NCBI GenBank assembly: GCA_019745975.1
Contig: JAIESQ010000070.1
Span: 1 to 41,320 of the forward strand
Source: Pirellulales bacterium
Lineage (GTDB): Bacteria; Planctomycetota; Planctomycetia; Pirellulales; JAEUIK01
Reading direction: 5' to 3'
DNA: 41,320 nucleotides
The translations under genes and the position numbers were made by a program. Position 1 is the stretch's first letter. Every line of letters starts with the position of its first letter. Below the pieces are notes generated by a model. The model had not been told where the DNA came from. It saw only the letters and a list, made by a program, of their open reading frames with translations, and searched no databases. Below are positions 33,927 through 38,917 of this stretch, piece by piece.

Positions 33927-35369
33927 CTACGGCTGCAGTGACCGCAGCAGTCCTTCGGCTTTGTGCCAGGTTTCGGCATATTCGGCCTCGGGAGTGCTGG
34001 CAGCGACAATGCCGCCACCCACCGGTGCTTGCCACCAGCCGCGGCCGGCCGTGATCGTGCGAATCAGAATGTTTGTATCGCAAGTGCCGTCGAAGCCGAG
34101 ATGGCCCAGCGCGCCGCAGTACGCGCCGCGCGCCGTCGGCTCGAGTTCGGCGATGATTTCGGTCGCCCGCACTTTCGGCGCGCCGCTGATCGACCCGCCG
34201 GGAAACGCCGCCCGCAACAAATCGATCGGTCCCTTACCCTCGCGCAGCGTTCCGCGCACTACCGACACGAGATGCTGCACGAACTCGTACGCTTCGACCT
34301 GGCACAGCTCAGGCACGCGAACGCTTTCGGGCGTGCAGACGCGCGACAGATCGTTGCGCAACAGATCGACGATCATCACATTCTCGGCGCGATCCTTGGC
34401 GCTGGCGCGCAGCTCGTCGCCCACGAACAGGTCGGCCACCGGCGACGCGAGCCGGCGCCGCGTCCCCTTGATCGGGCGTGTCTCCACTTCGCGTCCGCGA
34501 ACTTGCAAGAACCTCTCAGGCGAGGCGCTGGCGATCTGCAAGTCGCCCAGATCGAAGTACCCGGCGAAGGTGGCCGGATTGCGCCGCCGCAGTCGCAAGT
34601 AGAGCGACACGGCGTCGTCGATCGCAGGGTACAGGAGCCGCTGCGCCAAGTTGACCTGAAACACGTCGCCAGCGCGGATGTACTCGACCGCGCGGCGAAT
34701 CACGTCGAGATACGCGCGCTCGGAAAAGTTGCTCGTCAAATCCGGCCGGGTCGGCACGCCGAATTGCGGTGCCAGTTGATCGGCAGACAAGCGATCGATC
34801 GCCGGCCGCGCGGGGTGGCGCGGCGCCGGTTCGCTCAACCAGATCTGCACTTCGCGTAGGCGCTCGGCGGCCCGGCGTCTGCGCGCGGCGGGCTCAATTT
34901 CCGGAAACCCCTGCGAGATGATCCAGGCGCGATCGCTGGCGTGATCGAATGCCACGACCACGTCGTAGAGCCCAATCGCCAGCGCCGGCACGCGGAACTC
35001 GTCGAAGCGCGGCGCCGGCAGCCGCTCGAACTGTCGGGCGAGATCGTAACTGAACAAGCCCGCCGCTCCGCCTTGAAACGGCGGCAGCTCGGCAACCGTC
35101 GGCGCTGAAAATGTCGCCATCCGCGCCCCTAACGTGTCGAGCGCGCTGGTTCCCTCGATAGGCAGCTTCAAGAACTCGAATGGCTCGGCCGCCAGGAATG
35201 AATAGCGCCCCAGCCGCGCATCGCCCAGCGCACTATCCAGAAACAAACAATGGCGTCGGGCGGCCAGTCGCAAGAATGTTTGCTCAACATCGGGCGCGGG
35301 GCGCAACTCACACACGAGGGGCAGCCCCGACTCGGCAGCGTCTTTGCTAGCGGCCGCTGGCCCTGTCAT
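33927..35369 (-). CDS. pabB: Aminodeoxychorismate synthase component I
   Basis: 480 residues from the ATG at 35369, which overlaps the stop of the DHPS-like gene (ATGA). Chorismate-utilising fold with late motifs [16 protein letters not shown] (329-344) and [14 protein letters not shown] (389-402). The diagnostic PIKGT (299-303) has the Lys301 that marks PabB; anthranilate synthase TrpE has PIAGT. It therefore makes 4-amino-4-deoxychorismate, the precursor of p-aminobenzoate, and needs an ammonia-supplying PabA plus the lyase PabC, neither visible here. Coupling to a DHPS-like gene ties it to pterin-cofactor synthesis. p-Aminobenzoate is used both for folate and, in C1-metabolising planctomycetes and methylotrophs, for tetrahydromethanopterin. 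Confidence 0.92.
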
Positions 35370-36793
35370 GTGCGCTCCGTCGGCGGGTGCGTTGTCGCCG
35401 ATTCGTCGGCCGGCTCGCGCCGCTGGCGCGCGTGGTGCGATTCCTCGGGGCGCGTCAGGAATCCCCAATCGAGCGATTGGTCTTGCCGGTATTGCTTGCC
35501 GAGCGTCAAGGCGGTGACCGCTTTAGCTAGCTCGAATCCCAGGTAGAAGCTGTGCTCCGGGTCAAGATGGCGCGGGGCCAGCGCCGCAAGCCGCGCGAAG
35601 AGGGCAAACGGGTCGACGTCGTGCAGATGGATGCCCGCGGCCATGATGTGCAGTTGCCCCTCTTCGGCGAAGATCCGGTAATTCGGATCTTTGATTTCCT
35701 GGGCCAGCCGCTCCAAGGCTGCCGCTCCAAAAGGCTGCACCTCAGGGTCGCGCAGCATCACCAGCCGCGGTTCCACATGCTTGGGCAACTGGCGATGGGC
35801 GACCGCTTGCCACACCAACCGCCGCGCCAAGTCGCACTCGCGCACCGACGAGCGGGCCCAGTTGATCACTTGTGTCGTCAGCACGCTGCGGATGCCAACT
35901 TCCTGGCAGAAACCCAACAGCAAGACGTTGACGCCGGCCGAATCGACGTCGGTCAGCTCGGTCAGATTGCCGATCCCCATCAATAGCTCGGCGTCCGGCC
36001 AGCGGCGGCGCACTTCGAGATACCGCCCCAGGCTGGCCGCGAACCCAAAGCCGATCGGCTCCAGAATCGGATCGATGCGAAATCGGGCCCCGCGCGTGTT
36101 CAGCAACTCGAGCGTCGATTCGATCGTTTCCAGGCCACCTCCGGCATCGGGCACGACGACCAGCTCGGCCGGCCAATCGAGCGCCGCCCGGCGATTGCTG
36201 GCGTTGACCGACAACACCAGTTCGGCGCCGGCCGCAGTGGCGGCTGCTGCTTCGCTCGCGTTCATCGTATCGATCGAGACGCGATGGCCGCGATCGCGCA
36301 GGGCGCGTACGGCGTCCGCGACGGTTGTCCACTCATGTGCCGGATCGCAGCCCAGGTCGATCACGTCGGCGCCATCGGCGCGCAAGCGGTCGGCTTCGAC
36401 CAGCAACTCTGCCAGCGGCAGCCGCGGCGCATGATTGATTTCCGCCAGAATCTCGATGTCAAAGCGGCCGTAGTCTGCCAGCGGGGCTTGCTGCCCAAAG
36501 AACTTGGGCAGGTCGCGCAGATCTTTCGGTCCGCAAGCGACCGGCACGCCGGCAGCACACTCCACAGCTTCGAGGTCACCCTGGCACCAACCGGGTAACA
36601 ACACGCGAGTCGTTCCCGGCGGTACGCAGATACGCGACGCGACCCACGCCGGGGTCATGAGCGCCGCCACGCTGATCGCCAGCACGTCGACCGAATAGTC
36701 GAAGCCGACCGAGGCCGACAGCTCGTCGAGCACGCGACGCAAGGCGAACTCTGCCAGCCGGCCGGTGACGAAATGAAGTCGTTCTCGCGGCAT
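35366..36793 (-). CDS. Dihydropteroate-synthase-like protein (DUF6513)
   Basis: 475 residues. An N-terminal domain (about 1-105, DUF6513 type, starting RLHFVTGRLAEFALRRVLDEL as two parts) precedes a TIM barrel related to dihydropteroate synthase: GADVIDLGCDP (141-151), RVSIDTMNASEAAAATAAGAELVLSV (171-196, read as two parts) and PDAGGG (215-220). The classical DHPS residues are only partly kept, so it is not an ordinary FolP. DHPS-related proteins of this kind occur in methanogens, planctomycetes and some methylotrophs, and have been linked to tetrahydromethanopterin-type cofactors, but the reaction is not settled to my knowledge. The last 120 residues form an extra C-terminal domain. Its ATG directly follows the stop of the SDR gene (TAAATG), and its stop overlaps pabB. 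Confidence 0.82.
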   Translation of the reverse strand: MPRERLHFVTGRLAEFALRRVLDELSASVGFDYSVDVLAISVAALMTPAWVASRICVPPGTTRVLLPGWCQGDLEAVECAAGVPVACGPKDLRDLPKFFGQQAPLADYGRFDIEILAEINHAPRLPLAELLVEADRLRADGADVIDLGCDPAHEWTTVADAVRALRDRGHRVSIDTMNASEAAAATAAGAELVLSVNASNRRAALDWPAELVVVPDAGGGLETIESTLELLNTRGARFRIDPILEPIGFGFAASLGRYLEVRRRWPDAELLMGIGNLTELTDVDSAGVNVLLLGFCQEVGIRSVLTTQVINWARSSVRECDLARRLVWQAVAHRQLPKHVEPRLVMLRDPEVQPFGAAALERLAQEIKDPNYRIFAEEGQLHIMAAGIHLHDVDPFALFARLAALAPRHLDPEHSFYLGFELAKAVTALTLGKQYRQDQSLDWGFLTRPEESHHARQRREPADESATTHPPTERT

Positions 36794-37588
36794 TTATCGC
36801 GGGCGGAAACCGCCATCGACGTTGATGATCTGTCCGGTCAGGAAGGCGGCATCGTCGCTGGCCAGCCAGCGCGCCACGCGCGCCACGTCATCGGGCGTCC
36901 CCCACAGTCCGAGCTGCGACTCGCGGACGGCTCGCTTCTGCCAGGCCTCGGAAGCATGCTCGCCCCAAGCGGTCTTGATCCATCCTGGGGCGAGGCAATT
37001 CACGCGCACCTCGGGGGCCAGGCCGAGCGCCGCGCTCTTGGTAAACGCCATGATCGCTCCCTTGGCGAGGCCGAACAACTCGCCGCTGTCGCCCGCCATG
37101 CCCGTGGCGGCCTGATCCCAGCCCATGTTGAGGATCACCCCGCGGCCGGCGGCCTTCATTCGGCGACCGACGAGGCGGGTTAAACCGACCGTGGCGGCGA
37201 CGTCGATGCGCCACAACGCGTCCAGTTTTCGTTCAAAGGGCCAGGCAGCGGCGGCTCCGGTCAGCACATCGACGCCGGCATTGTTGACCCAGACATCGAC
37301 ACTGCCGCGAAACGCCCCGGCCTGGTCGACGAGCTTCGACCACGAGGCCGACTCGGCCAGATCGCAAACCGCGACTTCGGCAGCGCGTCCCAAGGCGCGA
37401 ATCTCGGCGGCCACCGCCAGCGCCGCGTCGCGCGCCTGGCCGGTGTGCACGAAGACATCGGCCCCCGCGCGGGCAAACTCCAGCGCGATGGCGCGACCGA
37501 TCCCGCGTGCTCCGCCCGTGACGACCGCCACCTGGCCGGCGAGCGACGCGGAGACATCTCCACCACGAGAATGAGAAGCTGAGCTCAT
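36794..37588 (-). CDS. SDR-fold protein lacking catalytic Ser and Tyr
   Basis: 264 residues of the short-chain dehydrogenase/reductase family. The cofactor loop TGGARGIG (24-31), NNAG (102-105) and the closing LTGQIINVDGG (250-260) are canonical. The active site is not: the usual YxxxK reads FGLAK, so Phe172 replaces the catalytic Tyr while Lys176 remains, and the usual Ser position is Trp157 in NMGWDQ. The codons (TTC for Phe) are clear in the DNA. The protein may bind NAD(P)H or a pterin without classical hydride-transfer chemistry, or use another acid. It is the first gene of a coupled trio with the DHPS-like gene and pabB; pteridine reductases are SDR proteins, which makes a pterin role conceivable but unproven. 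Confidence 0.88.
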   Translation of the reverse strand: MSSASHSRGGDVSASLAGQVAVVTGGARGIGRAIALEFARAGADVFVHTGQARDAALAVAAEIRALGRAAEVAVCDLAESASWSKLVDQAGAFRGSVDVWVNNAGVDVLTGAAAAWPFERKLDALWRIDVAATVGLTRLVGRRMKAAGRGVILNMGWDQAATGMAGDSGELFGLAKGAIMAFTKSAALGLAPEVRVNCLAPGWIKTAWGEHASEAWQKRAVRESQLGLWGTPDDVARVARWLASDDAAFLTGQIINVDGGFRPR

Positions 37589-37756: not shown

Positions 37757-38917
37757 GTGGCGACGCGAAGTGGCCCCATCGATTTGCGAGAACGGCTGAA
37801 GAATTCAGCCTTTGGGCTGCGCGGCTACAACGTCACGAATCTCGGCCGCAGCCGCGACCTGTTGTTGCATCCGGCTTACGGCCCAACCGTCGAGCGCCAT
37901 TTGATCGTCGCGGGGCAGATGGCGGCCGACACCTTGCACCAGCAGGTCGACCTGGTTGCCCGGGTGCGCAGCGCGAAAGAATCGACGCTCGAAACTTTCG
38001 GCGAAGACATCACGCTGATCGTGGCCATGGAACTGGCGCAGCTCGAATTGCTGCGGCAGTTTTTCGACCTCGACTGGCAGCGCAGCAAGCTGGCTTTCGG
38101 CTACAGCCTGGGCGAAGTCGCGGCGCTGATCGCGGCCGACATCTACAAGCTCGAGCACATCCTCGGTCCCCCGCTGGCGATGGCCCCCGAGTGCATCGAG
38201 TTGGCGCGCGATGCCACGATGGGAGTACTCTTCTCGCGCGGGCCCGAACTAAGCAGCGATGCCGTGCACAAGCTCTGCCTCGAAATCAACTCCGAGGGAG
38301 AGGGGATCATCGGCGTCTCGGCCTACCTGTCACCGAATACGCTGTTGCTGATGGGCCAGGGGAACACGATCGACCGCTTCAAGCGACGCATGAAGGAAGC
38401 CATCTCCGCGCAGGTGCACTTGCGCAAAAACGAGCACAAGTGGCCACCCCTGCACACGCCGCTGTTGTGGGAACGAAACTTGCCCAACCGCGCGGCCGTG
38501 ATGCAGCACACGATGCCTGGGGGCTTCAGCGAGCCGCGCCCCACCCTCTTGTCGATGGTCACCGGCAAGGCCAGCTACACCGATTGGAACAGCCGCCAAA
38601 TCCTCAATCGCTGGATCGATCATCCGCAGCGGCTGTGGGACGTGATCTGCGAAACGCTGGCCGCCGGCGTCGAGACGATCGTGCACGTCGGGCCCGACCC
38701 CAACCTCGTCCCCGCCACCTTCCAGCGCCTCAGCGACAACGTCGTTTCGCAGGTGCGTGGTCTCACGCCGTTGCGTTTGCGCTATCGGGCGATGTCGTCG
38801 ATCGCCCGCCGCCAGTGGCTCACCAAGTGGCTCTCGAGCCGGGCGATCCTGCTGCGGGCTCCGTTCATCGAGCATGTGGTGCTCGAAGAATGGCTACTCG
38901 AGCAAAAGCCGGTTTAG
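37757..38917 (+). CDS. FabD-like (malonyltransferase-fold) protein
   Basis: 386 residues from a GTG with GGAAGG four bases upstream. The alpha/beta-hydrolase core has GYSLGE (115-120) with nucleophile Ser117, where FabD has GHSLGE. A candidate catalytic His233 lies in PPLHTPLLW, and VETIVHVGPDPNLVPATF near the C-terminus matches the closing part of the fold. The N-terminal GQG loop that supplies the oxyanion-hole Gln in FabD is not found; the protein begins instead with GLRGYNVTNLGRSRDLLLHP. Malonyl transfer therefore cannot be assumed; it may be an acyltransferase with other specificity. It is followed by a hairpin repeat and then by an enoyl-CoA hydratase gene in the same direction, so a lipid or acyl-CoA role fits. 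Confidence 0.75.
   Translation: MATRSGPIDLRERLKNSAFGLRGYNVTNLGRSRDLLLHPAYGPTVERHLIVAGQMAADTLHQQVDLVARVRSAKESTLETFGEDITLIVAMELAQLELLRQFFDLDWQRSKLAFGYSLGEVAALIAADIYKLEHILGPPLAMAPECIELARDATMGVLFSRGPELSSDAVHKLCLEINSEGEGIIGVSAYLSPNTLLLMGQGNTIDRFKRRMKEAISAQVHLRKNEHKWPPLHTPLLWERNLPNRAAVMQHTMPGGFSEPRPTLLSMVTGKASYTDWNSRQILNRWIDHPQRLWDVICETLAAGVETIVHVGPDPNLVPATFQRLSDNVVSQVRGLTPLRLRYRAMSSIARRQWLTKWLSSRAILLRAPFIEHVVLEEWLLEQKPV

Follow-up and report, generated by a model that had tools for sequence, protein, structure and literature searches.

The two known classes of dihydromethanopterin (H2MPT) reductase with which the present gene is compared are the AfpA/DmrB flavoprotein and DmrA. In passages of a 2016 opinion article (PMC5020050), Afp is described as unrecognised in planctomycete genomes and DmrA as its replacement in Methylobacterium, and sections of a second paper (PMC6193120) describe DmrA as almost confined to alpha-proteobacteria and group all planctomycete homologues of dihydrofolate reductase (DHFR) in its tree with DfrA rather than DmrA. 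Planctomycetes are, moreover, a reference group in the debate over the origin of methanopterin-linked C1 metabolism. The stretch of DNA analysed in this study (referred to as the window; 41,320 nucleotides of a contig from a Pirellulales bacterium) encodes on its minus strand a short-chain dehydrogenase/reductase (SDR; 264 aa, positions 37588 to 36794) directly upstream of a dihydropteroate synthase (DHPS)-like protein with a DUF6513 domain and of a PabB-type protein. Gene order, co-occurrence, clade and motif make the SDR a slightly better than even candidate for the missing, non-homologous dihydromethanopterin reductase, and the step now has one candidate gene with a clear signature, previously unrecognised in planctomycetes. 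Our literature search found no paper for DUF6513, nor for dihydromethanopterin together with short-chain dehydrogenase; pabB and the DHPS-like gene may already be treated in two papers of 2005 on these gene clusters.

Distribution of the SDR and of methanopterin genes

Two samples of the phylum Planctomycetota, comprising 159 and later 392 genomes, were analysed. A profile search of the larger sample (E <= 1e-57, matches of at least 280 bits, with scoring limited to six candidates per genome) identified an SDR orthologue in 47 of the 49 genomes that carry both mch and DUF6513, whereas the remaining 343 genomes yielded none. A single-sequence search of the 159 genomes yielded one top match per mch-positive genome (246–556 bits, with the next match at 135 bits), and the orthologue set defined in this manner is exactly the set of 15 mch-positive genomes. 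Outside the window's own class, the SDR is present in 10 of the 12 mch-positive genomes. The gene was also sought around DUF6513 in 80 loci of relatives (the best 80 of 529, by record name all planctomycetes save one named only 'bacterium'); these are uninformative on other phyla because the search patterns were derived from planctomycete sequences. The SDR lies inside the fetched stretch in 46 of these loci and elsewhere in the genome for 28 of the remaining 34 (26 with scores of at least 300 bits, one split inside one frame and one truncated by a contig end), giving a total of 74 of the 80. Beyond Planctomycetota the SDR was looked for in plasmid records, where no match was obtained at E 1e-40 in a collection that holds 36 DUF6513 records (chromosomes were not searched).

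The genes of the methanopterin pathway were observed to follow the same pattern. DUF6513 was detected in 15 of the 159 genomes and mch in the same 15, while in the larger sample each occurs in 50 genomes, with 49 in common. beta-RFAP synthase (E <= 2.2e-21) is found in the same 15 genomes as mch, with two further marginal partial matches in other genomes of that sample (E 2.5e-4 and 3e-4); the family cut-off is passed in ten of the 15 and missed in five, the window's genome being among the latter. DUF6513 and mch are at most about 5 kb apart on one contig in four of the first 15 genomes, and tblastn matches to fae and mtdB were obtained about 10 kb from DUF6513 in one locus (L040; only the fetched loci were searched). 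The window's genome carries PabA, DUF447 and beta-RFAP synthase genes on one contig (C58) and mch with an ATP-grasp gene on another (C59). The original prediction had suggested a methanopterin-type route, and the co-occurrence with mch and beta-RFAP synthase and the common operons of relatives (see below) bear this out, from which it follows that the trio belongs to methanopterin-type cofactor synthesis; that the SDR has a role in this pathway is very probable indeed. Occurrence of the trio in species without methanopterin genes, named at the outset as evidence to the contrary, was seen at most once in 50 genomes, in a relative of the same order (G201; other methanopterin genes were not searched for there), in which a divergent DUF6513 gene adjoins PabB with neither mch nor the SDR (L299, G201:C1:4275000-4289000). 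Another genome (G386) has a divergent mch with neither DUF6513 nor the SDR, and was therefore left out of the pathway genomes. As a separate observation, contig C59 of the window's genome carries a Cas9 gene (1035 aa) and a Cas1 gene (L045, 5889-10009) a few kb from mch and its ATP-grasp neighbour.

Gene order around DUF6513 in planctomycetes and proteobacteria

In the window, the TAA codon of the SDR gene ends at 36794 and the ATG codon of the DHPS-like gene (36793 to 35366, 475 aa) follows at 36793 (TAAATG, 36791–36796), while the TGA codon of the latter overlaps the ATG codon at 35369 (ATGA, 35366–35369) of the PabB-type gene (35369 to 33927, 480 aa); the claim that no free bases separate the genes was thereby confirmed. 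Among relatives, the SDR orthologue was observed directly upstream of DUF6513, on the same strand and at a distance of up to 1 kb, in 38 loci out of the 72 whose fetched sequence extends at least 900 bases upstream; PabB lies directly downstream, again no more than 1 kb away, in 45 of the 76 whose sequence reaches at least 900 bases in that direction. This coupling exceeds chance. In the 48 loci with at least 5 kb downstream, PabB (31 loci), PabA (28), DUF447 (31) and beta-RFAP synthase (29) occur on the same strand within 6 kb, and the complete one-strand order SDR-DUF6513-PabB-PabA-DUF447-beta-RFAP synthase is present in 17. In G130, where the SDR is apart from DUF6513, it adjoins genes for 4-(hydroxymethyl)-2-furancarboxaldehyde-phosphate (4-HFC-P) synthase, an amino-acid kinase and a hydantoinase-type protein, kinds of gene that are also present in the Azoarcus C1 island.

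The proteobacterial islands for dephospho-tetrahydromethanopterin (dephospho-H4MPT; Azoarcus, Paraburkholderia, Phyllobacterium and others) resemble the planctomycete loci in that DUF6513 lies near varying sets of beta-RFAP synthase, mch, DUF447, CitG-like, ATP-grasp and pterin genes. They differ in the gene directly upstream of DUF6513, which is a flavoprotein reductase in 11 of the 14 proteobacterial plasmid loci that were read (five of which had been picked because the listing named a flavoprotein; the count is six of nine among the loci not picked by name), whereas planctomycetes have the SDR in that place and PabB and PabA in the operon. The flavoprotein gene overlaps that of DUF6513 in the six annotated loci, and its product matches PDB entries 3wis and 4mwg, titled 'Putative dihydromethanopterin reductase (AfpA)', with 307.6 bits. 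Since the flavoprotein is directly upstream of DUF6513 in most of these proteobacterial loci, the SDR occupies the position of the flavoprotein reductase; the two share this position and the proposed reaction, but belong to unrelated families. When the proteobacterial flavoprotein itself was used as query, also as a single sequence, no full match to AfpA/DmrB was obtained in 31 planctomycete genomes, where five fragments scored 18.7–20.1 bits against 330 for the positive control. The family model TIGR02700 was dropped as a test for AfpA: it matched short fragments in 14 of 15 genomes, none of them over the cut-off, and was therefore uninformative. A DHFR-family gene was not found in ten of the 15 mch-positive genomes, that of the window included.

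Two side observations concern pterin genes of these islands. Pterin-4a-carbinolamine dehydratase (PCD) genes are present in the islands of a proteobacterium and of planctomycetes (L194:2423-2809, L272:2973-3332 and L037:11102-11443). Furthermore, CitG-like and 6-pyruvoyl-tetrahydropterin synthase domains are fused in one open reading frame in one locus (L037:8517-9938) and encoded by separate adjoining genes in another (L042).

Catalytic signature of the SDR and alternative roles

The SDR matches PF13561 with 147.4 bits and carries the classical TGxxxGxG and NNAG motifs (the latter replaced by LNAG or CNAG in three of 15 aligned orthologues) and the catalytic Lys, but lacks the catalytic Tyr of YxxxK. 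Alignment of the 15 orthologues with 15 other planctomycete SDRs (the best-scoring non-orthologues with a kept locus from the single-sequence search) and the corresponding tree placed all orthologues on one side of a fully supported branch. Lys176 (37061–37063) is invariant in the 15 orthologues, and Phe172 (37073–37075, in F-x-x-x-K) replaces the catalytic Tyr in 14 of them, whereas Tyr is present in all 15 other SDRs (as read from the alignment, a pattern count of paralogues being unreliable and hence unused). Phe was observed at this position in 45 of the 46 SDR-bearing loci and in 97 of the 99 distinct orthologue sequences that matched the pattern; seven of the 106 distinct orthologues were off pattern, six of these having Phe by eye and one with the position not visible. 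Further motifs common to the orthologues are GWD, which follows the strand at whose end the catalytic Ser is normally found (residues 156–158, 37115–37123, near the usual Ser position and invariant in all 15), G-M-x-G-(D/E)-S, and PGW.xTxWG. The FabG-type classical SDRs have the same fold, Rossmann motif, NNAG and Lys, but differ in the Phe substitution, the GWD insert and the PGW.xTxWG motif. The predicted structure is good (pLDDT 90.4) and presents an ordinary SDR fold, which matches FabG-like and other SDRs (Z 33 to 34.5 to FabG structures); the absence of a pteridine reductase among the 50 fold matches listed proves nothing. One of these matches, PDB 3itd, is titled as the inactive Y167F form of a 17beta-hydroxysteroid dehydrogenase, which makes an ordinary ketoreductase role for the SDR less likely.

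The pteridine reductases PTR1 and FolM provide a second comparison, as they share with the window's SDR the scaffold, the conserved Lys and the proposed reduction of a dihydropterin to a tetrahydropterin, but differ from it in having Tyr in place of Phe; the SDR also has a standard G-x3-G-x-G and scores only 125.4 bits against the PTR1/FolM model NF006598 (cut-off 288). According to passages of two papers on PTR1 (PMC8996148, PMC1618733), the first reduction employs an Asp-Tyr relay and the second takes its proton from water, the latter step being likened to DHFR (PMC1618733). An SDR that has lost Tyr and kept Lys would suit an enzyme that performs only the second, dihydro to tetrahydro, reduction. 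The Asp-Tyr-Lys triad of PTR1 is not reproduced in the SDR (F172/K176), though an Asp is present in GWD; mutation of this triad is reported, in one of those passages, to cause significant activity loss (PMC8996148), and even in PTR1 the loss of Tyr thus carries a cost.

Each catalytic step of the following scheme is one that we infer. PabB, with PabA encoded on another contig, would make the precursor of p-aminobenzoate (pABA); beta-RFAP synthase (encoded elsewhere in the window's genome and in the same operon in many relatives) would convert pABA and phosphoribosyl pyrophosphate (PRPP) to beta-ribofuranosylaminobenzene 5'-phosphate (beta-RFA-P); and the DUF6513 protein would join the latter to dihydropterin diphosphate. 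In the last step, the SDR would use NAD(P)H to reduce 7,8-dihydromethanopterin to its tetrahydro form, standing in for both DmrA and the AfpA/DmrB flavoprotein without being homologous to either, and the product would be a (dephospho)tetrahydromethanopterin cofactor. There is about an even chance that the SDR represents a third, unrelated class of dihydromethanopterin reductase, so far seen in Planctomycetota, to which the search was largely confined: a natural Tyr-to-Phe enzyme, DHFR-like in using an NAD(P)H hydride and a water proton, which displaced the flavoprotein upstream of the condensing enzyme. If true, this would be a third independent solution to H2MPT reduction, and a chemically telling case of an SDR without the catalytic Tyr.

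Several observations weigh against a reductase function. Two genomes (G387, 99% complete, and G219, 98% complete) carry mch and DUF6513 with neither the SDR nor AfpA/DmrB; G387 retains the DUF6513-PabB-PabA-DUF447-beta-RFAP synthase operon, G219 has mch, PCD and DUF6513 together, and no convincing substitute reductase lies beside DUF6513 or mch in either, implying that another enzyme does the job there or that the reductase idea is mistaken. The SDR is likewise absent from six of the 80 further DUF6513 genomes (genome completeness not stated). Of the 47 SDR-positive genomes, 37 belong to the window's own class, and since most are thus kin they represent few independent events rather than 47. 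Tyr is kept in two of the 99 distinct orthologue sequences. By sequence, FabG/glucose-dehydrogenase models fit the SDR better than the pteridine reductase model does (172.6 versus 125.4 bits), and the SDR reads TGGARGIG where PTR1 has G-x3-R-x-G. Finally, three of the 14 proteobacterial loci (Azospirillum plasmid loci L284, L286 and L291) lack a flavoprotein directly upstream of DUF6513.

The main alternative, which we consider rather unlikely, is that the SDR belongs to the pathway but catalyses a different step, for example the reductive opening of the ribofuranose ring that would follow the DUF6513 condensation and yield the ribitol chain. The same co-occurrence and operon data apply to such a role, the SDR is directly upstream of the condensing enzyme, its best NCBIfam score (under the cut-off) is to a glucose 1-dehydrogenase subfamily, and a quinone-methide-like intermediate would presumably need no Tyr either. 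However, every methanopterin maker should need the ribitol step, yet the plasmid collection with its 36 DUF6513 records (chromosomes not searched) yielded no SDR match at E 1e-40. DUF447, located near DUF6513 or beta-RFAP synthase in planctomycetes and proteobacteria, offers a candidate for a step that both groups share; DUF447 structures bind FMN, and the PDB entries matched here are uncharacterised. Furthermore, the gap reported for planctomycetes, in passages of the opinion article, is the H2MPT reductase (PMC5020050).

Alternatively, the SDR and PCD might form a pair that repairs or recycles oxidised cofactor (a 4a-carbinolamine or quinonoid form), comparable to PCD and dihydropteridine reductase with tetrahydrobiopterin. 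This would agree with the PCD gene that lies between the SDR and DUF6513 in L037, L038, L044 and, by homology, L040, just upstream of DUF6513 in L031 and L034, and beside beta-RFAP synthase in a Paraburkholderia plasmid. Nevertheless, PCD is in the fetched stretch of only six of the first 15 planctomycete loci and in one of 80 named loci, the SDR being far commoner, and the genomes would still want a reductase for synthesis, making this pair improbable. It is more doubtful still that the SDR shares the operon by descent only and catalyses an unrelated reaction: the SDR is apart from DUF6513 in seven of the first 15 genomes and missing from G387 and G219, but retention in nearly all pathway genomes even when unlinked, and absence from all others, argue otherwise. 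Least credible is an alternative dihydrofolate reductase in a trio serving folate, for although DHFR is missing from ten mch-positive genomes, the SDR tracks mch rather than DHFR loss (the five mch-positive genomes with DHFR have it, and 16 of 20 tested mch-negative genomes, hand-picked from 144 for good assemblies, lack DHFR and have no SDR orthologue), a distribution on which a folate-only reading was rejected.

The DHPS-like and PabB-type proteins

The DHPS-like protein, with its proposed joining function, passes the DUF6513 model (PF20123; 78.2 bits, cut-off 23.9) with its N-terminal domain (36524–36784) and Pterin_bind (35.8 bits, cut-off 25.5) with residues 128–201 (36191–36412). It does not pass the FolP model TIGR01496 (25.5 bits, cut-off 162.6), in agreement with the earlier statement that it belongs to a group distinct from FolP. 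Its score against TIGR00284, the model for dihydropteroate synthase-like protein, is below the cut-off (163.1 versus 256.65 bits), and by sequence comparison it is a divergent relative of that family. The predicted structure is of moderate quality (AlphaFold; pLDDT 76.7, pTM 0.57), and in a fold search DHPS structures came out on top, with TMt values of 0.57–0.69 in nearly all of the 50 matches listed. The original prediction had assigned undescribed steps to the SDR and to a C-terminal extension of the DHPS-like protein. The first part survives, in that by distribution and position such a step may fall to the SDR as candidate reductase, whereas the extension is not peculiar to the window's protein, because the TIGR00284 model includes that region (match at residues 113–441, model positions 152–497 of 497).

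The PabB-type protein (Chorismate_bind, 285 bits), the proposed maker of the p-aminobenzoate precursor, falls just under the cut-off of the PabB model TIGR00553 (320.8 versus 328.4 bits) and under that of the TrpE model (370.1 versus 517.7 bits). The family models alone do not settle its identity; the genomic context, which includes PabA and beta-RFAP synthase, points to PabB, as had been supposed, rather than TrpE. Lastly, the gene divergent from that of the SDR (37757–38917) encodes a product with weak likeness to malonate decarboxylase epsilon and FabD-type acyltransferases, with no Pfam match.

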